From a virus, in the IMG/VR virus record IMGVR_UViG_3300042988_000341, positions 24,578 to 88,577 of that record: a DNA stretch of 64,000 nucleotides; one strand, 5' to 3'. This document shows positions 17,368 through 61,880 of this stretch, piece by piece. Under the pieces are notes generated by a model. That model searched no databases. It was given only the letters and a program-made list of their open reading frames with translations, and had not been told where the DNA came from. Every line of letters begins with the position of its first letter. The first letter of the stretch is position 1. The translations under genes were made by a program, and so were the position numbers.

Positions 17368-17752
17368 TCTTAATAACTTAACGCCAGAACAACAGTTAGA
17401 GCTAGCCCAAGCATTACAGGTAGCTTTATCTACAATTCAGCCACTACCTCAACCAGAATACAGAGTATATTACAGCAGTGATGGTAAGGTGATCACCTAT
17501 ACCACCGAAGATTTACCCGGTGACTATTTAGTAATTACTCTTGAAGATTACCAGCAAGCTAGGCATGATGCCGTAATCATAGGTGGTAAATTAATATATA
17601 CGCATGTTCGCCGGCATGTAACTAAGTTAGTCAAAACTAAAAATAATACTCAAGGGTTTGCTGCTAGTAAATATGACATTAGTGTAGTCGCACAAGGTAG
17701 CTACCCAGATGTCAATCATTACCAAGTACAAGCCAATGAAATTAAACGATAA
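17360..17752 (+). CDS. hypothetical protein
   Basis: The 130-residue protein overlaps the preceding stop by 8 nt. The N-terminus is a Gln/Leu-rich helix (LTPEQQLELAQALQVAL). The rest is beta-rich with IYTHVRRHVTKLVKTK, a basic stretch. No recognised domain or signal. It is probably a helper or a small virion protein co-expressed with the island. Confidence 0.45.
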   Translation: MIDLNNLTPEQQLELAQALQVALSTIQPLPQPEYRVYYSSDGKVITYTTEDLPGDYLVITLEDYQQARHDAVIIGGKLIYTHVRRHVTKLVKTKNNTQGFAASKYDISVVAQGSYPDVNHYQVQANEIKR

Positions 17753-18674
17753 GACCCAGGAAGAAGTATTAGAAGTTATAGAGATAGATGAACTTGACAT
17801 AGTATACCTATCATATGATGAACCACAGAAAGAAGACTTCTGGATCAAACTAAAGAACATGGCTCCATGGGCTACTAGAGTAGATGGAGTTCGAGGTAGT
17901 GATGCTGCTCATAAGGCAGCTGCCGCCGCGTCCAATACTGAACGATTCATTCTAGTGGATGGTGACAATATGTTAGAAGAGCACTTCCTGGACGAGTGCC
18001 TAACTATCACCGCTAGTAATCGGGATGCTCAATTCCGTTGGCGGGCCAAGAACTGTATCAATGGCCTCCACTATGGCAATGGTGGCGTATCATGTTGGAC
18101 CAGATCCTATATCAACAATATGCGTACTCACGAGGCCAGTGATCCCACTAATACTCGAACTAACATTGAGTTCTGCCTGGATCCTAATTATTGGCCTATG
18201 CATAACTGCTACTCTACCACCTACCCTAACTATACTCCTCAACAGGCATGGAGAGCAGGATTCCGTGAAGGTGTAAAGATGTGTAATCGCGATGGTCCAA
18301 TGCCTGCTAGCGCCAGCACCTTCCTCCAACATGTATGGCCAGGCAATCTCCAGAATCTCCACATATGGCAAACCATCGGGCGTGACGTAGAGAATGGTCA
18401 GTGGGCTATACTAGGAGCTAGACTAGGCACACACTATCTAATGTTACGTGACTGGGACTATAGAGAAGTACAGGACTTTAGCTGCTTAGACCGACTATGG
18501 GAGCTACATAAGAATGATGATGAGCACGTAGCTCACGAGTTGATGCTAGACTTAAACAGGGCACTAGGCACTACGATAGTGGAGCTAGACGCAAGTGCCT
18601 CTAAATTCTTTAAAGATTACGTTAGTGTAAAATGGCGCAATACTGATATTATGAACAGAGAAACATATGAATGA
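17709..18674 (+). CDS. glycosyltransferase-like protein with DGDN motif
   Basis: The 321-residue protein has a GT-A-like core: strand LDIVYLSYDE, helix, then RFILVDGDNM, where D84-G85-D86 fits a DxD site. Later blocks are CINGLHYGNGGVSCW and the region around QQAWRAGFREGVKM and WQTIGRDVENGQWAILGA. The same blocks occur in the same order in the C-terminal half of the protein at 28267, so the two are homologous. The start used here overlaps the previous gene by 44 nt and has AAGG upstream. A second ATG at 17736 would remove nine residues and reduce the overlap. Confidence 0.6.
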   Translation: MSIITKYKPMKLNDKTQEEVLEVIEIDELDIVYLSYDEPQKEDFWIKLKNMAPWATRVDGVRGSDAAHKAAAAASNTERFILVDGDNMLEEHFLDECLTITASNRDAQFRWRAKNCINGLHYGNGGVSCWTRSYINNMRTHEASDPTNTRTNIEFCLDPNYWPMHNCYSTTYPNYTPQQAWRAGFREGVKMCNRDGPMPASASTFLQHVWPGNLQNLHIWQTIGRDVENGQWAILGARLGTHYLMLRDWDYREVQDFSCLDRLWELHKNDDEHVAHELMLDLNRALGTTIVELDASASKFFKDYVSVKWRNTDIMNRETYE

Positions 18675-20241
18675 ACAACGAATAAATGTTAGTGATATTC
18701 ACTGGTTCAGAACAGGAAACAAGTCTGATCATGGCCGAAATGTTGAGTCAATTAAGCAATTACTTGGTCAAGTTGGTCCAGGGTTCTGCTTAGCTAAGTT
18801 CAGCCAGGTCACTATGCATCTAGGTCAAGGTACAGTTCATAGTTGTCACCACCCTAGAGTTCATCATATACCACTAGAGGAACTCAAAGAATCCCCAGCA
18901 GCCCTGTTTAATAGCAGGTACCTACAGGGATTAAGAACTGAGATGAAGGCAGGTGAACGTCCATCGGAGTGTGGATACTGCTGGAGAATTGAAGATGGTC
19001 AGGGTACTGGCACTAGTGATAGGTTCCTCAAAAGTATGACTGAATGGTCAGTACCACACTATGATATTGCTATTAATAGCACTGATACTACTATACACTA
19101 TCCGTCCTATCTAGAGGTTGACTTTAGTAATGTCTGTAACTTTGAATGTATCTACTGTGGTCCAGAGTTCAGTAGTAAGTGGGTAGAGAACATCAATCGT
19201 CATGGTCCAGTTATTATGCTTAGAAATACTGATGGCTTGACTGGACAACAGGGATACAAGTCAGACTATGCTACTATGCACTACAAGAACAAGGATCATA
19301 ACCCACATCTAGAGGCGTTCTGGCAATGGTGGCCAGAGATGGTCGGTCATCTCAGAGTATTCCGCATTACTGGTGGTGAGCCATTAATGAGTCGAGAAAC
19401 ATTTAAGATGATGGATTACTTTGCTGAGAACCCGCACCCAGATATAGAACTAAACATCAATAGTAATCTAGGCGTACCACAGAAACTATGGGATGAATTC
19501 ATCTCTAAGGTGGAGAAGCTAGATAGGAACAATCTAACGGTATATACCTCAGTGGACGCATGGGGCGCTAGAGCTGAATACATTCGAACTGGCTTAGACT
19601 TCCAGTTATTCCAACAACGATATATCCAGCTATGTGAATTGGGTATTAAAGTTAATACTATGTGTACATTTAACATTCTAAGTGTTACTAGTATCTTAGA
19701 TTACCTTAAGTGGATAATTGAGATGAAGCGTAGATTCAACTATAATGCGTACTATGCTGACTTAGAGCAGAAATTTGGCTTTAAGTGGTCAACTCAGGCT
19801 ACAGTTAATAAACCAATTAAGGTAGGTATAGACATGCCGTATCTACGTCACCCACTACACTTAGACGTACTGGCCACAATCAACCAACAGTTAATTCAAG
19901 ATTATTTAATCCCAGCATTCAAATTTGTACAGGAGAATCAGAGTACCACGATTGTTACTGAGGATGGCACTGAACTAAGCTCCTGTACGGGGTTCGAAGC
20001 ACATGAGGTAGCAATGTTTACTAGAATCGTTACTGACATCTTAGATAGATGGAGAACCAGAGATGGTGAACGTGTTAGACACGAACGAGCCAAGCTATTT
20101 GACTTCCTAACTGAGATCGACGAGCGCCAGGGCTCTAGCTTTAGAGATACATTCCCTGAGATGGAATCTCTATGGCAACGTTGCGAACTAGATATCGATA
20201 GTTATTATAACCCTGGTCCTCTAACACTAACTAATATATGA
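18667..20241 (+). CDS. radical SAM protein, twitch/SPASM-like, 1 of 4
   Basis: The 524-residue protein has a Cys-rich N-terminal region (FCLAKFSQ, VHSCHHP, CGYCW) that can hold an auxiliary Fe-S cluster. It is followed by the radical SAM core with CNFECIYC (C157, C161, C164) and the SAM-binding RITGGEPLMSR. An extra C-terminal region of about 150 residues is specific to this copy. The order, auxiliary Cys before the core, matches phage twitch-type radical SAM proteins. Such enzymes usually modify peptides or sugars through a 5'-deoxyadenosyl radical. It overlaps its neighbours by 8 and 4 nt. The substrate is not indicated by sequence. Confidence 0.8.
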   Translation: MNEQRINVSDIHWFRTGNKSDHGRNVESIKQLLGQVGPGFCLAKFSQVTMHLGQGTVHSCHHPRVHHIPLEELKESPAALFNSRYLQGLRTEMKAGERPSECGYCWRIEDGQGTGTSDRFLKSMTEWSVPHYDIAINSTDTTIHYPSYLEVDFSNVCNFECIYCGPEFSSKWVENINRHGPVIMLRNTDGLTGQQGYKSDYATMHYKNKDHNPHLEAFWQWWPEMVGHLRVFRITGGEPLMSRETFKMMDYFAENPHPDIELNINSNLGVPQKLWDEFISKVEKLDRNNLTVYTSVDAWGARAEYIRTGLDFQLFQQRYIQLCELGIKVNTMCTFNILSVTSILDYLKWIIEMKRRFNYNAYYADLEQKFGFKWSTQATVNKPIKVGIDMPYLRHPLHLDVLATINQQLIQDYLIPAFKFVQENQSTTIVTEDGTELSSCTGFEAHEVAMFTRIVTDILDRWRTRDGERVRHERAKLFDFLTEIDERQGSSFRDTFPEMESLWQRCELDIDSYYNPGPLTLTNI

Positions 20242-21539
20242 ATAATAATATGAATAATAATAAAACAATATGCGCGGTACCCTTTGTTAGTACCATGATT
20301 AACACTGATACTACAGTTAGATACTGCTGTATGGTAGCTAAATGGACTAATAGCAGAGTCACCAAAGATGATGGCTCATCATATACATGTAGAGATAACT
20401 TTACTACTGATTCCTGGAATAGTCAGTATATGCGAAACTTACGAGTGTCTATGTTACGAGGTGAAACTATTACTGGCTGCGACACTTGTTACAAACAAGA
20501 GGAAGACGGCAGAACTAGTAATAGACAGCACAGTATCATGGAGTGGAATTGGCGCATAGGCGAGGACCAACTGCGCGACATCTTTAAACATGCTGAGGCC
20601 AACGATGGCCATCTCGATATGCCGCCGGTATACCTGGACCTACGACTAGGTAATCTGTGTAATCTTAAATGTCGTATGTGTAACCCGTGGAATAGTAGTC
20701 AAATTGTCAGAGAGCACAAGGACAGCTTGGTTAATAACCCCGAATACATTCGAGTATGGGAGAAGACTTTTGGTAAATTCCCAGAGAAGGTTATGGATGA
20801 ACAAGTATGGTTCGATGGTGATGTTCTATGGGATCAAGTAATATCATTAATCCCTGTACTAAAGAAAGTATACATGACTGGAGGCGAGCCTACCTTAATC
20901 AAAAACAACTTTAAGTTCATGGAAGAATGTATCAAACAAGGTAGAACAGACATTGCCCTGTTCTTTAACACTAACTGCACTAATATCAACAGACAGTTCT
21001 TAGGACTAATTAGTCAGTTCGATGAAGTAAGTATCAACGCTAGTATGGATGGTATCGGTATAGTTAACGATTATATCCGCGCCCCTAGTAAGTGGGAACA
21101 AATCAGCACTAACATCGAGCGATTGGCTGAACTACCAAACGTTAAACTGGGAGTTACTCCTACGATACAGGTGTATAATGTCTATAATATAGTGGCCATG
21201 ATCAAATGGGTAGAGCATATTCGAACTAAGTACGAACGAGATATCTTTATTGACTTCCTCATCAACCAGCATCCACTACACCTGAACACCAATATATTGC
21301 CTCAACACATTAAAGATGAGGTTATCGCGGAGGTGGTAGATTTCAAAGATAATCATATGGCTAATCATCATCCAATGACTATCAACAGTTTGACTGGACT
21401 AATAGGACATTTAAAAACGCCCACTCCTCCTAATCATCAAGAGCAACTAGAGCGCTTCAAGGTATATACCAGGGCACTGGATACAGAACGTGGTCAATCA
21501 TTGATTGATGTAGACGCAAGATTAACAGGATTATTATGA
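20238..21539 (+). CDS. radical SAM protein, twitch/SPASM-like, 2 of 4
   Basis: The 433-residue protein has auxiliary Cys in ICAVPF, RYCCM and GCDTCYKQE at the N-terminus. The radical SAM triad is CNLKCRMC (C141, C145, C148), preceded by LDLRLGN and followed by the SAM-contact segment YMTGGEPTLIK. The first codons form a small duplication (MNNNMNNN), so an in-frame second ATG at 20250 is possible. Translation is coupled to both neighbours by ATGA overlaps. It is closest in plan to copy 3, including the RxxMLRGE and SMxW spacer features. Confidence 0.82.
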   Translation: MNNNMNNNKTICAVPFVSTMINTDTTVRYCCMVAKWTNSRVTKDDGSSYTCRDNFTTDSWNSQYMRNLRVSMLRGETITGCDTCYKQEEDGRTSNRQHSIMEWNWRIGEDQLRDIFKHAEANDGHLDMPPVYLDLRLGNLCNLKCRMCNPWNSSQIVREHKDSLVNNPEYIRVWEKTFGKFPEKVMDEQVWFDGDVLWDQVISLIPVLKKVYMTGGEPTLIKNNFKFMEECIKQGRTDIALFFNTNCTNINRQFLGLISQFDEVSINASMDGIGIVNDYIRAPSKWEQISTNIERLAELPNVKLGVTPTIQVYNVYNIVAMIKWVEHIRTKYERDIFIDFLINQHPLHLNTNILPQHIKDEVIAEVVDFKDNHMANHHPMTINSLTGLIGHLKTPTPPNHQEQLERFKVYTRALDTERGQSLIDVDARLTGLL

Positions 21540-22801
21540 TTGACATTAATAAACTTTGTGTGCAGCCATGGATGCACCTAGCCAGCTTTAATAATGGCCA
21601 GGTGCCTCTATGTTGCGTTGCTCAACCAGAGCAAGGTATTAATTTAAATACCCAAACGCCGATCCAAATATGGAATAGCCAACAGTTTAAAACTGCTAGA
21701 TTGCAGTTCTTAGCCGGTGAACAACCACCACAATGTAGTGCTTGTTGGCGCGAAGAGGCGGCTGGAGTTAAAAGTCACCGCCAGATTGAGAATACAATGT
21801 GGTCGCGAATCCTGGGTCCAGAGTATCTACAAGAGTTAATTGCTAGTACTGGCGAAGATGGCACTCTTGATAGAAACCCAATTACCTTAGATTTGCGTAT
21901 AGGTAATACCTGTAATCTACAGTGCGTTATGTGTAGGCCGCATGATAGTAGCAGATGGCTAGCTGATAGTCGGAAACTAGCCCAATCATTGACTAGTCCT
22001 GGTGCTCGTGGTGATTGGGAATATAAGGCTACCAGTATCAAGTCAACTGATTGCTTTGACTGGTTCTCTAGACTAGAAACTCAGAATGCCCTGGGCGAAT
22101 TCATGGGAGATATTCAGAGAATTGTCTTTGGCGGCGGCGAGCCACTAATGCTTAAAGAACACTTAGAGTTTATTACTAGACTGGTAGAGTCAGGTCACGC
22201 TGGGAACATTACCCTGGGCTATCATACTAATGGCACTCAATTAACTGAACGATTCATTGAGTTATGGAGTCACTTTAAAGCAGTAGAGTTAATGATTAGT
22301 GTGGACGACTGGGGACAACGTAACGACTACGTAAGATACCCTAGCAGTTGGTCAACTTTGCTAGCTAACCTAGACAGACTAGATAATACTGCTGACAATA
22401 TTAAGGTTAATATCTTGGCTACAGTACATGCTATGAATATCTACAATCTACCTGAGTTCGCCCAGCAGGTCTTAGACCGAGGATGGTCCAAGATAGGTAG
22501 CAGAAATCACGGTCTGTTCTTTGTGGGCACCACCCACTGGCCTCAATATATGAGTACTCAAGTACTACCTGCCACAATTAAAGATCAGGTAGCTAGTCAT
22601 TGGGCTAAATTTCCTGCTATAATGGAGCATCCTCAGTGGCGGAACAGAATTCACCAACAACTAGAGTTCATGCTGAGTAGAGATGAGTCTAGTAGATTCC
22701 CGGACCTCGTTGATTATATCGACCGTCTCGATGACATTAGGCCCATCAAGTTCAAGGATCTATACAGTGAATACTATCAACTCCTTCGAGGCACACAATG
22801 A
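21536..22801 (+). CDS. radical SAM protein, twitch/SPASM-like, 3 of 4
   Basis: The 421-residue protein has N-terminal auxiliary Cys (LCVQPW, PLCCV, CSACWREE), then IWNSQQFKTARLQFLAGE, a segment typical of this twitch family. The core carries LDLRIGNTCNLQCVMC (C126, C130, C133) and VFGGGEPLMLKE. It is coupled by ATGA overlap to both neighbours. The full motif set argues for an active enzyme rather than a decayed copy. Confidence 0.82.
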   Translation: MIDINKLCVQPWMHLASFNNGQVPLCCVAQPEQGINLNTQTPIQIWNSQQFKTARLQFLAGEQPPQCSACWREEAAGVKSHRQIENTMWSRILGPEYLQELIASTGEDGTLDRNPITLDLRIGNTCNLQCVMCRPHDSSRWLADSRKLAQSLTSPGARGDWEYKATSIKSTDCFDWFSRLETQNALGEFMGDIQRIVFGGGEPLMLKEHLEFITRLVESGHAGNITLGYHTNGTQLTERFIELWSHFKAVELMISVDDWGQRNDYVRYPSSWSTLLANLDRLDNTADNIKVNILATVHAMNIYNLPEFAQQVLDRGWSKIGSRNHGLFFVGTTHWPQYMSTQVLPATIKDQVASHWAKFPAIMEHPQWRNRIHQQLEFMLSRDESSRFPDLVDYIDRLDDIRPIKFKDLYSEYYQLLRGTQ

Positions 22802-23811
22802 AACACGAAATCGGCGAAAGTGATATCATATTCATGAGTAAGACGGAGATATCTAAGCACACTGCTGAGTATCTACACTCCAATGGTCCTAACTCATGGA
22901 AGGACTGGTGGTGCAGCGCTGGATTAAGGTCCCTGTACATCAGTCATGATGGGTTAATCTATAGAGGCACGTGTCAGGTAGACGGCGTGATTGGTAGTAT
23001 CTATAACACCGGTAGTCCTAGAGCAGTAGAACTAAGTCAATGGGTTAAATGTACCGCGGATACATGTATGTGTGCTCCCGATATGAGAGCTCCTAAAGTA
23101 GTTAATATTGAAAATAGCAACATTGTTGGCATGACCCATCAATATTTGCCTAAGGCGTACTGGGTTAATAACGCAGAAGTGGATCTGGTCAATGACCCAT
23201 ATGTTACATATAGCCAGGCCCATGAGGAGTTTAAACTAGTCATATGGGAACTAGGTCGACGCTGTAACTATGATTGTTGGTATTGTGGTCCAGATGCCCA
23301 TAATACATACGAGAGTCAAAAGACCCTAGGTTCACTATTAGCGGCGGTCCGCCAACTACAGATTATATGGCTTAATAGTCAACCAGCCAAGTTTGTATTC
23401 GCTGGTGGCGAATCAACATTCAACCCAGACTTCATGGAGTTTGCTAATCATCTACACAAGGACGGTCACAGAATTCATACAACTACCAATGGCAGTCATA
23501 CCACCGCGTACTACACTGAACTAGCTAGGATATCTGATATCTCATTTAGCGCTCACCTCAGTTATCTTGAGACTCCAAACATCGCAAAGAAGTTTATAGC
23601 AAACGTAGCAGCAGCAACCATCAACGCGGGATTAAACTATATCGAGGTCAGAATCATGCTCCAACCAGGTAAATTACTCCAGGCCCAGGAGCTCCATACT
23701 CGCTTAATAGAAGTTACTCCACGTGTTACAGTCGATCTCCTACATAACGAAACTAAGACTACCATTGAATATACCGCCCAAGAAGTCCAATGGGCTACCA
23801 GTCATCAATAA
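22798..23811 (+). CDS. radical SAM protein, divergent, 4 of 4
   Basis: The 337-residue protein has an N-terminal block WCSAGLRSLYISHDGLIYRG with CTADTCMC that differs from copies 1-3 but again offers extra Cys before the core. The radical SAM triad is CNYDCWYC (C156, C160, C163), after the WELGRR segment. The glycine-rich site reads FVFAGGEST. The protein is shorter at its C-terminus. It starts in a 4-nt overlap with copy 3 and ends 2 nt before a 34-residue ORF. It may act on a different substrate or at a different step from the others. Confidence 0.8.
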   Translation: MKHEIGESDIIFMSKTEISKHTAEYLHSNGPNSWKDWWCSAGLRSLYISHDGLIYRGTCQVDGVIGSIYNTGSPRAVELSQWVKCTADTCMCAPDMRAPKVVNIENSNIVGMTHQYLPKAYWVNNAEVDLVNDPYVTYSQAHEEFKLVIWELGRRCNYDCWYCGPDAHNTYESQKTLGSLLAAVRQLQIIWLNSQPAKFVFAGGESTFNPDFMEFANHLHKDGHRIHTTTNGSHTTAYYTELARISDISFSAHLSYLETPNIAKKFIANVAAATINAGLNYIEVRIMLQPGKLLQAQELHTRLIEVTPRVTVDLLHNETKTTIEYTAQEVQWATSHQ

Positions 23812-25562: not shown

Positions 25563-27026
25563 ATGAACTACATTGGAATATCTTGTGGCTACCATGATGC
25601 TGCTATTACCGTTATTGACGGTACTGGTAATATAGTGTATGCTGGTCATGCTGAGCGGTATGGTGGTGGTAAACATACTCCACACTTGAATAGTGGCATT
25701 ATTAATGCTGCTATGGCTAGTATCAATACTAGTACTGATAGTTATAGTCTACATTATTATGAGCGTCCACTAGTTAAATGGTTACGCAGATGGTGGGCTG
25801 GTGAGAGGCCATCGTGGAGGAGTATAGATATAGGTAGTATTATTGGTACGCAGAATATGGCTCTACTTGGTTATGATAGTAGGAAGATTAATACTTATAA
25901 TCATCATCTTAGTCATGCGGCTGCTGGCTTCCAAACTAGTCCATATATGGATGCTACTGTGGTTATTATTGATGCTATTGGTGAGTTTGAATGTGTTACT
26001 ATATGGAAGGCAGGGTGGGATGATGGTAGGGCAAAATATACGAGATTGTATACTAGATATTATCCGAATTCGATCGGACTCTTTTATACTGGAATTACTA
26101 GAAGGTGTGGCCTACGCCCATTAGACGAGGAGTATATCTTAATGGGTATGGCTGCCTATGGTGTTCCTAGATATGTTGAGGAGATGAGGCGGTTATTAGA
26201 TATGAATTTACATCGTGGTTGTGATTGGTTCTTGCCTGATGCTGATATCTATGACTTGGCTGCTAGTGCACAGGTGCTGGTGGAGGAGCTAATAGTGGAG
26301 GTGGTGGAGATTGCTAAAAAAATTGGAGCTAGCTCCAATTTAGTATACGGTGGTGGTCTAGCATTAAACTGTAGGGCGAATAGATTGCTGGGTGATTATT
26401 ATTCTAATGTATGGATTATGCCTAATCCTGGTGATGCTGGTAGTAGTTTAGGCGCGGCCGCTCTAGGTTATGGTGGCCGAATTAAGTTTAATAATTGCTA
26501 TTTGGGCACTAATATTAGTGGACAGTATCCGGTTACGGAGTTGTTGGAGGAGTTATTATCTACTGGTATAGTTGGAGTAGCATCAGGTAGGGCGGAGTTT
26601 GGTCCACGAGCCTTGGGTAATAGAAGTTTATTAGCTGACCCTAGAGGTAAGGATATTCGAACTAGGGTGAATAATATTAAACAACGCCAGCAATTTAGAC
26701 CATTTGCTCCTGTTATCTTAGAGGAGCATGCCGATATGTACTTTGATCTGGTACCGGGTGTTAATAGTCAATATATGCAGGTAGTGGCTAGATGTAGAGT
26801 GCCAGAATTATTCCCTGCTATTGTTCATTATGATGGTACCAGTAGAGTTCAAACAGTAGCGGCAGATGGTTCTGGCATCCGACTATTATTGGAGGCATGG
26901 TACGAGAGGACAGGTTGCCCTATGTTATTAAATACCTCGCTGAATATTCGAGGTAGGCCTATGGTTAATACCCAGGAGGATGCTGCTCAGTTTGAGGCTG
27001 AATATGGTGTTCGGGTATTAAGTTAA
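25563..27026 (+). CDS. NodU/TobZ-family O-carbamoyltransferase
   Basis: The 487-residue protein has an N-terminal Kae1-like domain with ISCGYHDAAITVID, HHLSHAAAGF (H114 and H118 as probable iron ligands) and VVIIDAIGEFE (D137). GGLALNCRANRLL and PNPGDAGSSLGAA follow. The C-terminal domain has GRAEFGPRALGNRSLLADPR and FRPFAPVILEE, both diagnostic of the carbamoyltransferase C-domain. It should transfer carbamoyl from carbamoyl phosphate via carbamoyl-AMP to a hydroxyl group, usually on a sugar or secondary metabolite. The stop overlaps by 4 nt the end of the convergent 27023 gene. Gene length is near the lower end for the family. Confidence 0.88.
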   Translation: MNYIGISCGYHDAAITVIDGTGNIVYAGHAERYGGGKHTPHLNSGIINAAMASINTSTDSYSLHYYERPLVKWLRRWWAGERPSWRSIDIGSIIGTQNMALLGYDSRKINTYNHHLSHAAAGFQTSPYMDATVVIIDAIGEFECVTIWKAGWDDGRAKYTRLYTRYYPNSIGLFYTGITRRCGLRPLDEEYILMGMAAYGVPRYVEEMRRLLDMNLHRGCDWFLPDADIYDLAASAQVLVEELIVEVVEIAKKIGASSNLVYGGGLALNCRANRLLGDYYSNVWIMPNPGDAGSSLGAAALGYGGRIKFNNCYLGTNISGQYPVTELLEELLSTGIVGVASGRAEFGPRALGNRSLLADPRGKDIRTRVNNIKQRQQFRPFAPVILEEHADMYFDLVPGVNSQYMQVVARCRVPELFPAIVHYDGTSRVQTVAADGSGIRLLLEAWYERTGCPMLLNTSLNIRGRPMVNTQEDAAQFEAEYGVRVLS

Positions 27027-27595
27027 ACGCCGCATACTACTAGATGAATACGCTCCTCTAGCCCGCCATTATATACCCAGTGAACTTCCCTAGTATCTAA
27101 TTCATACCAATGATTATCTAGTGGAAGATGATAACAGCTAGCGGTAGTAGGTAGTTCACTTCTGTCTAGGTTCATATCAGTGGTAGCATGTGCTACCTGT
27201 GCTCCTGGATTAGTTTTTAATACTAGATGATATCTGACCTCGGCGTCCTTATGTACACTTAGGCCAGTTTTAGGTGGTAATCTCATAAATCTAATTCTAC
27301 CTAGCCTAATATCAAGATGTTCTTGTAACTCCTCAATACAACGGCGAACTGTCCAGGTATTATCAATATTCCACTGGGTGAAGTCTACCTCGTGCGCTCT
27401 GTAACCACCAATACTTGATGAATATAAACTACCAGTGCCGTCTCTCCAGCAATCTATACTGGTTGGTTGAGAATTTAATGCTAGTTGATTCATGTCCTGC
27501 CATACATCAGCTAGTATTTTATTATCTAATAGTTGCTGTAAATCAGCTAGTACAGCCTGGGCAGGCGCGGTTAAATTTAATTTTTTAAGAAACAT
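27023..27595 (-). CDS. 2-oxoglutarate/Fe(II) oxygenase, Asp/Asn hydroxylase-like
   Basis: The 190-residue protein has GLSVHKDAEVRYHLVL, giving H115-x-D117, and a distal EVHWVYNGG with H172, the HxD...H facial triad of Fe(II)/2OG enzymes. ERIHLVVCG gives R182, suited to bind the 2-oxoglutarate carboxylate. The layout fits the aspartyl/asparaginyl beta-hydroxylase group. A paralogue lies at 29728 with near-identical core motifs. It directly follows the methyltransferase gene on the minus strand (stop then ATG with no gap). Confidence 0.72.
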   Translation of the reverse strand: MFLKKLNLTAPAQAVLADLQQLLDNKILADVWQDMNQLALNSQPTSIDCWRDGTGSLYSSSIGGYRAHEVDFTQWNIDNTWTVRRCIEELQEHLDIRLGRIRFMRLPPKTGLSVHKDAEVRYHLVLKTNPGAQVAHATTDMNLDRSELPTTASCYHLPLDNHWYELDTREVHWVYNGGLEERIHLVVCGV

Positions 27596-28237
27596 TTATT
27601 TTCTCCAAATTGCCATGTATCTAGTATATTCAGCAGTAACGAATTCACCAGTATAATAGGGAGCTTCCACCCTATTCTGAACTAGGAAGTCGCTAATATC
27701 AGTGGAGCACCTAATATGCTCCTCGCACTCAAAGTAGTTGTTGCCCTGTACTACAATTAAGGTACCAGTTGGAATATTATCCAACCAGGTATCATAAGTT
27801 GCCTGTAGAACATGCTCAGTGGAAGTATTAATTACGATATCTGGTCTAATATCAGATTGGTATTGATAGGTAGCCATATCTGCGGTCACCGCCTTAAATC
27901 GCCAATCGTCCATCTCGTGAATTTTATTTACTTGATCTGCTATAGGCTCACACCAGGAATCTAAGTCAATACTGCGTATCTTCCTAACATTAATATCAGA
28001 TTGAATTATCATATTAGCTAGAATTCCTATCCACCCACCAAAGATATAGATATTTTGAGGAGCGCCCGCCATAACATACTCACTGAGATGATTAACCAAC
28101 CAACCCTTAGATGCTAATTGACCCCACCATAAGGCATCTAATGCCCTAGTACGCTCCTGGTGACTGTCAATATTACGAATAGCATTCATCCATTGAGCTA
28201 TCTCTAAATTACTGATCTTAAACTCTGATTTATTCAT
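27596..28237 (-). CDS. SAM-dependent methyltransferase-like protein
   Basis: The 213-residue protein has IYIFGGWIGILANMI as the glycine-bearing SAM loop and RSIDLDSWCEP, whose acidic residue after the second strand fits ribose binding. PDIVINTSTEHV and IPTGTLIVVQGNNY occupy later strand positions. The glycine motif GGWIG is divergent from classical GxGxG, so activity is likely but not certain. The ATG lies 5 nt after TATAAATA on the minus strand, without a Shine-Dalgarno. Confidence 0.6.
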   Translation of the reverse strand: MNKSEFKISNLEIAQWMNAIRNIDSHQERTRALDALWWGQLASKGWLVNHLSEYVMAGAPQNIYIFGGWIGILANMIIQSDINVRKIRSIDLDSWCEPIADQVNKIHEMDDWRFKAVTADMATYQYQSDIRPDIVINTSTEHVLQATYDTWLDNIPTGTLIVVQGNNYFECEEHIRCSTDISDFLVQNRVEAPYYTGEFVTAEYTRYMAIWRK

Positions 28238-28242
28238 GGAGG

Positions 28243-28250
28243 TATTTATA
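28243..28250 (-). promoter_or_regulatory. late promoter box TATAAATA, minus strand
   Basis: This is an exact match to the T4 late TATA box on the minus strand. Five nt separate it from the ATG at 28237, so predicted transcription starts on the start codon. It is back to back with the plus-strand box at 28254. Confidence 0.6.
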
Positions 28251-28253
28251 TGG

Positions 28254-28261
28254 TGTAAATA
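28254..28261 (+). promoter_or_regulatory. late-promoter-like box TGTAAATA
   Basis: TGTAAATA is followed by 5 nt and then the ATG at 28267. It mirrors the minus-strand box in the same 29-nt divergent gap. Confidence 0.45.
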
Positions 28262-28266
28262 ACTCT

Positions 28267-29748
28267 ATGATAGAAGATGATGAAGACTACTGGGAAATTC
28301 CTGATAATATCGATAGGAGTTCGTTTGATTTTACTTGGCGTCCTGACCTCTATGAGCCTCCGTATATTCATCAATTCCCTATTAAATCTAATATAGATGG
28401 CGGTCCAAGATATATTGCTGCTGGCGCAACCGATATTAAATATCATACCGAGCCGATTGCTACTATTATTCCAGACTGGAGTAAATGGTGGATACCGGAC
28501 ACCATCGATCGGAATTCATTTGATTTTACATGGGAGCCCGATATCTACGAGCCTCCATATATTCATCAATTCCCTACTAAATGGGCCAATGATGCTGGCC
28601 CTAGATACATAGCTACTGGCGCTACTGATTTTAAATATCACGATGAACCAGTAGCTGATATTAATATTGACTGGAGTAAATGGTGGATACCGGACAATAT
28701 TGATTGTAGTAATTTTGATTTTACATGGGTGCCAGGAAAAACTGATAGGCCATACATATATCAATTCGGTACCCAACATCAAAAGACAGGCGGACCTAGA
28801 TATATTCAACCAGGTAGCAGAAGATTTAAATATGAATCGTCTCAACACGCAATTAAATTACCAGATACTGATAATTGGGTAGTACATCCTGATCTAGAAG
28901 TTATTGACTTTGATTGGAGCTGGCACCCAGACAGTACTGACAGCATTTATAACTATGTTTTTGGCACAAGAGATATACCTCCACAGGAAATAAATTTAAT
29001 TACCTACAAGATGGCTACCGGAGCACCTAGTAAATATTCAGATATTATGGCCAACGCTAGATGGCAGGATCTAGATATTATATTCGTTAGTAATGGTGAG
29101 GTCGGCGAACAGCAACGATATGATAGATTGTGCGAGGTGGCTGGCAGAGAAGTTAAATGGGTACGAGGCGTTAATGGCAGAGAGAATGCCCTTAGCGCGG
29201 CAGCCCAATTATCCACTACCCAATGGTTTATCTTATTCCCTGGTAAATTATGGGCAGATGCGGCGTTTGATTTTAATTTCCAACCCAATCGAACATATGA
29301 GCCTAAGCATTATATTTTTTATGCCAAGAACCCATTAAATGGATTGGAATATGGGCATCAGGCAGCAGTATGTTATAATCGACAATTAGTATTAGAGACT
29401 ATCAACTACGGCCTCGACTTTACCATGAGTAAATTACACGATATTGTGCCAGTATTAAGTGGAGTAGCCCAATATAACAGTAGTGTTATTATGACCTGGC
29501 GCACGGCATTCCGTGAGGTGATTAAATTACTACATGCTGGTGATGCTGAGAGCGCCGCCAGATTAGAAGTTTGGCGAACAGTGGCAGACGGAGAGAATGC
29601 TGAGTGGAGTATAGCAGGCGCTAATGATGCGTTGGATTATTATACGGAAGTATCGGGTGATATATCAAAACTCATGGACACATTTAGTTGGCAGTGGTTG
29701 GAAGAATATTTTAACAGCAAATATTCATTAACAACCGCAGACCACTAG
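28267..29748 (+). CDS. tandem-repeat protein with degenerate GT-like C-terminal domain
   Basis: The 493-residue protein has three 65-residue repeats (about 9-73, 74-138, 139-203) and a partial fourth (204 to about 250). Each has a WxIPDxID start, FDFTWxPD, PPYIHQFPTK-like and GPRYIATGATDFKYH-like segments. The C-terminal half matches the protein at 17709: VRGVNGRENALSAAAQ, WFILFPGKLWAD, AKNPLNGLEYG, WRTAFREVIKLL, NAEWSIAGAND. The DxD of that relative (DGDN) is replaced by PGKL, so transferase activity is probably lost. It is flanked by two oxygenase genes, the nearer of which overlaps its 3' end by 21 nt. Confidence 0.7.
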   Translation: MIEDDEDYWEIPDNIDRSSFDFTWRPDLYEPPYIHQFPIKSNIDGGPRYIAAGATDIKYHTEPIATIIPDWSKWWIPDTIDRNSFDFTWEPDIYEPPYIHQFPTKWANDAGPRYIATGATDFKYHDEPVADINIDWSKWWIPDNIDCSNFDFTWVPGKTDRPYIYQFGTQHQKTGGPRYIQPGSRRFKYESSQHAIKLPDTDNWVVHPDLEVIDFDWSWHPDSTDSIYNYVFGTRDIPPQEINLITYKMATGAPSKYSDIMANARWQDLDIIFVSNGEVGEQQRYDRLCEVAGREVKWVRGVNGRENALSAAAQLSTTQWFILFPGKLWADAAFDFNFQPNRTYEPKHYIFYAKNPLNGLEYGHQAAVCYNRQLVLETINYGLDFTMSKLHDIVPVLSGVAQYNSSVIMTWRTAFREVIKLLHAGDAESAARLEVWRTVADGENAEWSIAGANDALDYYTEVSGDISKLMDTFSWQWLEEYFNSKYSLTTADH

Positions 29749-30306
29749 ATGAATTCTCTCCTGCTCACCGCCGTTATATACCCAATGAGGTTCTCTAGCG
29801 TCTAATTCGTACCAGTGATTATCTTGTGGTATATGATAGCATTGTGCTACCGATGGTAGTTCAATATCACTGTCAGTAGTTACATGATGGGCGAATACAA
29901 CTGCTGGATTAGTTTTTAATACTAGATGATACCGTAATTCATAATCTCGATGAACACTAAGGCCAGTTCTGGGCAATAATCTCATAAACCTAATTCTACC
30001 CAGTTCAATGCCCAGAGTATCTCTAAGTAACTCAAGCTGCTGTCTGACATACCACGACTGATCGATATTCCATCGAGTAAAGTCATTCTCATTGAATAGA
30101 TAAACATCATTCTTATAGTCGTATTTACTGCCGATACAGTCCTGCCATGGATCAATACTATCTGGGCGACTAGTCAAACCTACCTGATTCCTCATATGCC
30201 AGATATTGTCGTTCTCTGACCACGCTGTTTGTGTCTCCAATATAGTGATTAAATCATTATTAATTCTGTTGCTATCACTTGTTATATCTAGCTTCTTTAA
30301 GAACAT
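29728..30306 (-). CDS. 2-oxoglutarate/Fe(II) oxygenase, paralogue
   Basis: The 192-residue protein has GLSVHRDYELRYHLVL, giving H119-x-D121, PHWVYNGG giving H174, and ERIHLVVCG giving R184. Most core residues match the protein at 27023; the N-terminal 80 residues differ, which suggests different substrate recognition. The Shine-Dalgarno AGGAG lies upstream on the minus strand, and a CTAAATA box is found at 30327-30333. Its 3' end overlaps the repeat-protein gene by 21 nt. Confidence 0.72.
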   Translation of the reverse strand: MFLKKLDITSDSNRINNDLITILETQTAWSENDNIWHMRNQVGLTSRPDSIDPWQDCIGSKYDYKNDVYLFNENDFTRWNIDQSWYVRQQLELLRDTLGIELGRIRFMRLLPRTGLSVHRDYELRYHLVLKTNPAVVFAHHVTTDSDIELPSVAQCYHIPQDNHWYELDAREPHWVYNGGEQERIHLVVCGC

Positions 30307-61187: not shown

Positions 61188-61880
61188 TTAAGCTGTGCTG
61201 ATACTGATGCGCCACCCACCACAAGTTTTCCTTACGCCTGATATTACTTTACTGACACTTGCTTCATCTACTCCATGTCTTTTTACGAAATCACTTCTTG
61301 TGGATATCATTATCTCGTTGTTTTTAGTATTCTCAAAGACGTATATGGTAGAGTCATATCTAGGATTATTGGCACCTAATAAATGATGAGTTCCAACTAG
61401 AACTCTATCAGTAGCATGAGATGAGCCGTCTGGTCTACGAAGTAAATGATGAGTTCCAGCTAGAACTCTATCAGAAGATAGTGATGTGCCATCGCTTCTT
61501 TTTAATAAGTGATGTGTGCCAGATTTAACCCGATCACTAGATAATGATGACCCATCTGACCTGGTCATCAACGAATGTTTTCCATTGAGTAACGCGCTTT
61601 GGTTCTGTAATCTCGCTAAGTCGGATAACTCTTCCTTAGACATATTCATGCGTCTTGCTATTAGGTTACAGGCCCCGATATCTCCCTGCGCCAAATGAGC
61701 AGAATAATGATCCTCGATACTCAGTGCTACTAGATTATTTGGAGAATTGTTCAGGTCATTGCCGTCTCGGTGATGGATATCAAAAGACCTTCCAAGATGG
61801 TCCTGCGGTATTGGTCCATGATGGTCTTCATAGATTTTGCGATAAACTGAGGAGTGTGTCCTCTTTTTGCTAAATAACAT
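61188..61880 (-). CDS. HNH homing endonuclease with tandem 22-residue repeats
   Basis: The 230-residue protein has an N-terminal HNH core with SFDIHHRDGNDLNNSPNNLV and EDHYSAHLAQGD. The centre (about 98-171) has four tandem units of about 22 residues, with RSDGSSLSSDRV, GTHHLLKRSDG and LAGTHHLLRRPDG patterns, resembling NUMOD-type DNA-recognition repeats. The C-terminal STRSDFVKRHGVDEASVSKV and SGVRKTCGGW form a helix-turn-helix-like domain. It is free-standing beside phoH. The target is probably nearby phage DNA. Confidence 0.8.
   Translation of the reverse strand: MLFSKKRTHSSVYRKIYEDHHGPIPQDHLGRSFDIHHRDGNDLNNSPNNLVALSIEDHYSAHLAQGDIGACNLIARRMNMSKEELSDLARLQNQSALLNGKHSLMTRSDGSSLSSDRVKSGTHHLLKRSDGTSLSSDRVLAGTHHLLRRPDGSSHATDRVLVGTHHLLGANNPRYDSTIYVFENTKNNEIMISTRSDFVKRHGVDEASVSKVISGVRKTCGGWRISISTA
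61390..61590 (-). repeat. 66-bp-period tandem repeats in HNH gene
   Basis: About three full units and a partial one repeat with a 66-bp period, visible as the recurring AATGATGAGTTCC/CTAGAACTCTATCAG blocks. They are in frame and encode the 22-residue repeats. Not a CRISPR array: there are no unique spacers. Confidence 0.8.

Follow-up and report, generated by a model that had tools for sequence, protein, structure and literature searches.

Phage repeat proteins with a predicted GT-A domain in which lysine takes the DxD position

The window (the whole 64,000-nucleotide stretch that was analysed, part of an 88.6-kb virus record) encodes a repeat protein whose C-terminal domain is predicted to adopt the GT-A fold and has a lysine within the position of the metal-binding DxD motif. 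The tandem units in front of this domain are, judging by profile matches, homologous to a segment of the GT domain itself (Table 1). The protein exemplifies a GT-A variant that is widespread in phage sugar islands: part of an enzyme fold has been amplified into long, fast-changing arrays, and one clade (the K clade) has swapped the GT-A metal motif for an invariant lysine. Such a protein would be a sugar enzyme that works without metal or else a scaffold that binds sugar. As paralogues with DxD are present in the same genomes, metal independence can be tested directly against a pseudo-enzyme.

A search with the C-terminal alignment found relatives encoded in at least 593 viral-contig stretches (593 of 600 among the matches listed), on contigs of up to 364 kb. 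The best 80 of these at least 593 loci were retained for analysis. In a set of 84,980 bacterial and archaeal genomes there were three matching loci, each on a metagenome-assembled contig. L170, where the contig with the K-type repeat protein was assigned to a Pacearchaeota MAG, is likely viral. A tblastn search of 50,697 phage records (cultured phages) with the window protein, the 17709 product and the proteins of L002, L115 and L142 found nothing. The best structural matches in BFVD, A0A6J5LK21 (804 aa) and A0A6J5L5L5 (1076 aa), with E about 5e-36 and 24% identity, are uncharacterized proteins of uncultured Caudovirales phages and apparently belong to the same family. We found no description of such a family, or of a phage AspH, in the literature. 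This is apparently a large and so far undescribed family, whose members come from uncultured aquatic phages, often of very large size.

Table 1. Features of the repeat gene and of related or adjacent genes (positions in the window)
Feature	Position	Strand	Remarks
Whole repeat gene	28267..29748	+	493 aa, ATG start; repeat protein with C-terminal GT-A-like domain
Repeat 1	28288..28482	+	residues 8-72
Repeat 2	28483..28677	+	residues 73-137
Repeat 3	28678..28860	+	residues 138-198
Divergent fourth unit	28876..29037	+	residues 204-257 (about); iterated HMM E 1e-14, also found by repeat-only HMM
GT-A-like domain	29056..29745	+	residues 264-493
PGKL at DxD position	29239..29250	+	residues 325-328; Lys327 invariant in the clade
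Paralogue with intact DGDN	17709..18674	+	BLASTP, profile-profile comparison, alignment, tree
Carbamoyltransferase	25563..27026	+	most constant neighbour of the family
PF05118 Asp/Asn hydroxylase-like gene	27023..27595	-	neighbour only in the window's clade
Methyltransferase-like gene	27596..28237	-	homologue near repeat or GT gene in 11 loci; family assignment weak
Second PF05118 hydroxylase-like gene	29728..30306	-	PF05118 match

The C-terminal domain and the lysine at the DxD position

An earlier note on this DNA had described the C-terminal half as GT-like and homologous to the protein encoded at 17709, and both statements are borne out. The region of about residues 264-478 aligns with the 17709 product in BLASTP (E 5e-11, 25% identity), and profile-profile comparison gives E 2.3e-21 with a probability of 99.4. 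In the AlphaFold2 model the ten-residue means of pLDDT are mostly 90-98 over the C-terminal domain. GT-A glycosyltransferases lead its Foldseek matches in the PDB, with the S-glycosyltransferase SunS at E 9.4e-4 and GtrB, ArnC and others slightly above 1e-3. VIA-align superimposes residues of about 266-456 on GT-A transferases and related nucleotidyltransferases with Z of 9.2-11.4, so the predicted domain has a GT-A (Rossmann-like) fold. The fold match of the 17709 product is weak on its own because the model is poorer (pLDDT 76, best VIA Z 8.0).

The predicted fold is thus like that of GT2-like enzymes (SunS, GtrB, ArnC) and also of B4GALNT1. The repeat protein differs from these glycosyltransferases in lacking DxD, in being fused to arrays of truncated GT-related segments and in having no counterpart in the family libraries searched. 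Pfam, PHROGs and NCBIfam hold no family for the window protein, for its relative L001 there is no PHROG either and the only Pfam match falls below threshold, and a PDB sequence search with the profiles of the repeat-protein family and of 17709 gave no match.

The replacement of the DGDN of the 17709 protein by PGKL, also pointed out in the earlier note, is confirmed by alignment, and the lysine recurs in all sampled domains of the clade. Among 130 full-length sampled domains from the retrieved relatives, 89 have x-x-K at the DxD columns and the other 41 have DGD or DAD. The lysine occupies the position of the second Asp in 89 of 89 sampled domains of one phage clade, while the first position varies (F, P, N or W); the variants are FAK (72), PAK (9), NAK (3) and, once each, PGK, WAK, WGK, FPK and NGK. 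The sampling is biased by retrieval: the patterns that fetched K-type loci included KHYIF and [TA]WR[TS]AFRE, not the lysine, and of the six patterns used for the 17709 group one (DNMLEEHF) overlaps DxD itself. In a tree of 95 representatives, built with the DxD columns kept in and rooted at midpoint only, a single change separates the DxD and K groups (support 100/99). The domain is under purifying selection, with NG86 dN/dS of 0.03-0.17 in 11 pairs (one further pair was saturated) and YN00 values of up to 0.18. Local pseudogene decay can therefore be rejected as the cause of DxD loss, since the lysine is found clade-wide, the tree needs one change and dN/dS stays at 0.03-0.18.

Many site residues are common to the repeat protein and its DxD-bearing relatives: E278, N355, N358, Y362, G363, W411, R412, F415, R416, E417 and K420. 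The YG pair and the acid of WRxxFRE, conserved in both clades, are putative counterparts of the glycine loop and of xED. Seven near-invariant polar residues are new in the K clade (N276, R305, K327, K347, H348, H364 and H391). The description of the domain as a dead transferase thus holds as far as the loss of DxD is concerned, but its deadness is not established: the other site residues persist, the lysine is invariant, new invariant residues have appeared and selection is purifying. On the strength of the alignment, a metal-independent transferase seems at least as likely as a dead domain. The same conservation favours a pocket which is kept by selection and would bind a ligand, possibly with catalysis; the clade-specific histidines might also form an alternative metal site.

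GT-A enzymes working without metal are known in GT14, which uses basic residues, and in bacterial GT6, which has NXN (PMC3961637). Like C2GnT-L of GT14 and BoGT6a of GT6, the repeat protein would combine a GT-A fold with the absence of DxD. Basic side chains were proposed to replace the metal in these enzymes, and the clade-invariant Lys, Arg and His could play such a part here. In the described metal-free GT-As, however, the compensating basic residues are located near the C terminus (PMC3961637), whereas the lysine of the repeat protein is at the DxD position itself.

The repeat units and their relation to the GT core

Three 65-residue repeats and a partial fourth had been proposed, and this layout was recovered. 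Direct DNA repeats start at 28297, 28492 and 28687, with a spacing of exactly 195 nt (65 codons) and 75-79% identity, and Tandem Repeats Finder reports a period of 195 with a score of 479 for the gene. The protein repeats begin at residues 8, 73 and 138, and HMM search recovers the divergent fourth unit ahead of the C-terminal domain. A separate 63-bp tandem repeat (2.3 copies, TRF score 164) is located at 61377-61522 of the window.

An HMM built from the 65-residue units alone matches the GT-like modules of relatives without 65-aa repeats, with whole-protein E values of 7e-13 to 4e-7, and so rules out that the repeats have nothing to do with the GT domain. The match starts shortly before the DxD position and its loop and extends to the glycine-loop region; at the level of sequence profiles, the repeats are homologous to this part of the GT domain. 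The repeat-only HMM does not match the 17709 group and is not significant on the C-terminus of the window protein itself (i-E 7.7), so the link between repeats and GT domain runs through the relatives. An iterated HMM also matches the C-terminal segment of the window protein, although iteration can drift.

The number of upstream modules varies from 0 to 33 among 80 distinct relatives, with protein lengths of 359 to 2717 residues, and even close relatives can differ greatly. L087 and L088, whose C-terminal domains are 87% identical, carry 20 and 2 modules, and L001, L090 and L092, which are 88-91% identical, have 2, 3 and 4. The AlphaFold2 pLDDT of the repeats is only about 40-80, so their fold and any role in ligand binding are guesses.

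Neighbouring genes and possible roles

Neighbours were counted within five genes in 62 non-redundant loci, clustered with a length criterion. A carbamoyltransferase is found in 49 loci, a protein of about 386 residues without family in 35, an NDP-sugar epimerase in 34 and a DegT aminotransferase in 33. Less frequent are an SGNH-like hydrolase (20; the label is a reading of the sequence and corresponds to no family match), thymidylate synthase (18), radical SAM (17), APS-kinase-like (16) and methyltransferase-like (6) proteins. The carbamoyltransferase homologue of L001 (L001:1399-2319) has 306 residues, against 487 in the window, and is missing the C-terminal part. At 18667-23811 the window has four consecutive radical-SAM-type genes, the first matching NF033640 (twitch-domain radical SAM) and the fourth PF04055, with the second and third assigned by homology only. 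The methyltransferase-like and repeat genes diverge, with 29 nt between their starts (28237-28267), and the 3' end of the repeat gene overlaps the convergent oxygenase gene by 21 nt (29728-29748).

The flanking genes had been named as two oxygenases and a methyltransferase. Both oxygenases are PF05118 members (E 6.5e-7 and 4.6e-9), but the methyltransferase is less secure, with no significant family match; a distant relative reaches Methyltransf_12 only at E 0.11. That the repeats are a substrate hydroxylated by these oxygenases, as the earlier note suggested, appears very improbable. Two PF05118 genes adjoin the repeat gene in the window and one does in L001 and L090-L092, and the 15 related units of this small clade show a few enrichments of their own, for example in H at columns 28 and 34 and in D at column 37. 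A PF05118 gene adjoins the repeat gene in these loci only, however (4 of the 62 within five genes), and the main candidate sites are conserved equally elsewhere: the FDF aspartate and the following proline reach 95% and 99% in 421 units outside the clade, where a hydroxylase is normally absent, and 100% each in the 15 units within it. Hydroxylation can therefore be rejected as the general cause of the conserved Asp and Pro, which are sufficiently explained by the homology of the repeat to a GT core segment. A Cys-framed EGF-like site is absent, as no unit in the window's clade contains more than one Cys; other kinds of PF05118 substrate are conceivable. Hydroxylation within this clade is possible.

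We tentatively assign the repeat protein to a phage glycan-assembly island, as a sugar-handling protein that carries its own scaffold and works without metal; quite possibly it binds a nucleotide sugar with or without transferring it. Its C-terminal domain, with x-[AGP]-K in place of the metal-binding DxD, would need no metal to bind a nucleotide sugar or a comparable sugar that carries phosphate. The role of the cation would fall to the invariant lysine, together with other basic residues specific to the clade. The bound sugar would be either transferred or presented. The upstream units, as truncated GT-A segments amplified in tandem, would form a scaffold of variable length that keeps a growing glycan or a glycosylated acceptor within reach of the C-terminal site and of the tailoring enzymes encoded nearby (carbamoyl-, amino- and radical-SAM; in the window's clade also hydroxylase and methyltransferase-like). 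A recognition or scaffold role had already been suggested as a possibility and is supported as such. What speaks against sugar handling is that the first DxD position is variable, that the basic residues of known metal-free GT-As sit elsewhere and that the pocket of a non-catalytic pseudo-GT, for example COSMC (PMC7185993), would look equally conserved.

The main rival is a lectin or adhesin of the latter kind, a possible though rather doubtful reading in which each GT-derived unit binds sugar, the array gives avidity and glycans of the host surface or phage decoration are recognised with no transfer. The loss of DxD would fit it, and so would a hypervariable number of units next to a conserved end domain (for example 20 against 2 units where the C-terminal domains are 87% identical), which is the usual pattern of repeat adhesins. 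The usual neighbours are sugar-biosynthesis and tailoring genes, however, and the GT-type pocket is strongly conserved, including the residues common with the DxD relatives. Alternatively, the DxD-less protein could fold, stabilise or position the active 17709 paralogue as a regulatory subunit. COSMC, a chaperone that is related to GT-A enzymes but has no DxD, and its partner T-synthase provide the precedent (PMC7185993); there too DxD was lost while an active paralogue exists. Consistent with this, a repeat protein is also encoded on 19 of the 30 contigs that have a 17709 homologue. Nevertheless, we regard this hypothetical partner role as unlikely: in the window about 10 kb lies between the two genes, long variable arrays would be left unexplained, and COSMC is a eukaryotic GT31 protein with no repeat array. 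We further consider improbable a "polymeric" virus-specific glycosyltransferase whose 0-33 GT-A-derived segments would bind a glycan lengthwise, the repeat number serving as a ruler or template for the glycan held or built and the terminal Lys GT-A domain performing or capping the reaction.

Order of array formation and DxD loss

Relatives with intact DxD bear on how the two features arose. In L002, L037, L171 and L172 at least one domain lies nearer to the K clade than do the domains of the 17709 group. L002:4074-8648 encodes a protein of 1524 residues that has roughly a dozen modules while its terminal WVVDADA is intact; the presence of module arrays can thus be separated from DxD loss. This suggests that DxD was lost after the arrays arose, on a tree in which L002 is a long branch and the root is at midpoint. 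After the array gene of L002 comes a homologue of the methyltransferase-like gene seen in the window. In L037 (7971-9530) and L171 (2985-4634) single ORFs encode two consecutive GT domains, both with intact DGD, and possibly resemble the ancestor of the arrays.
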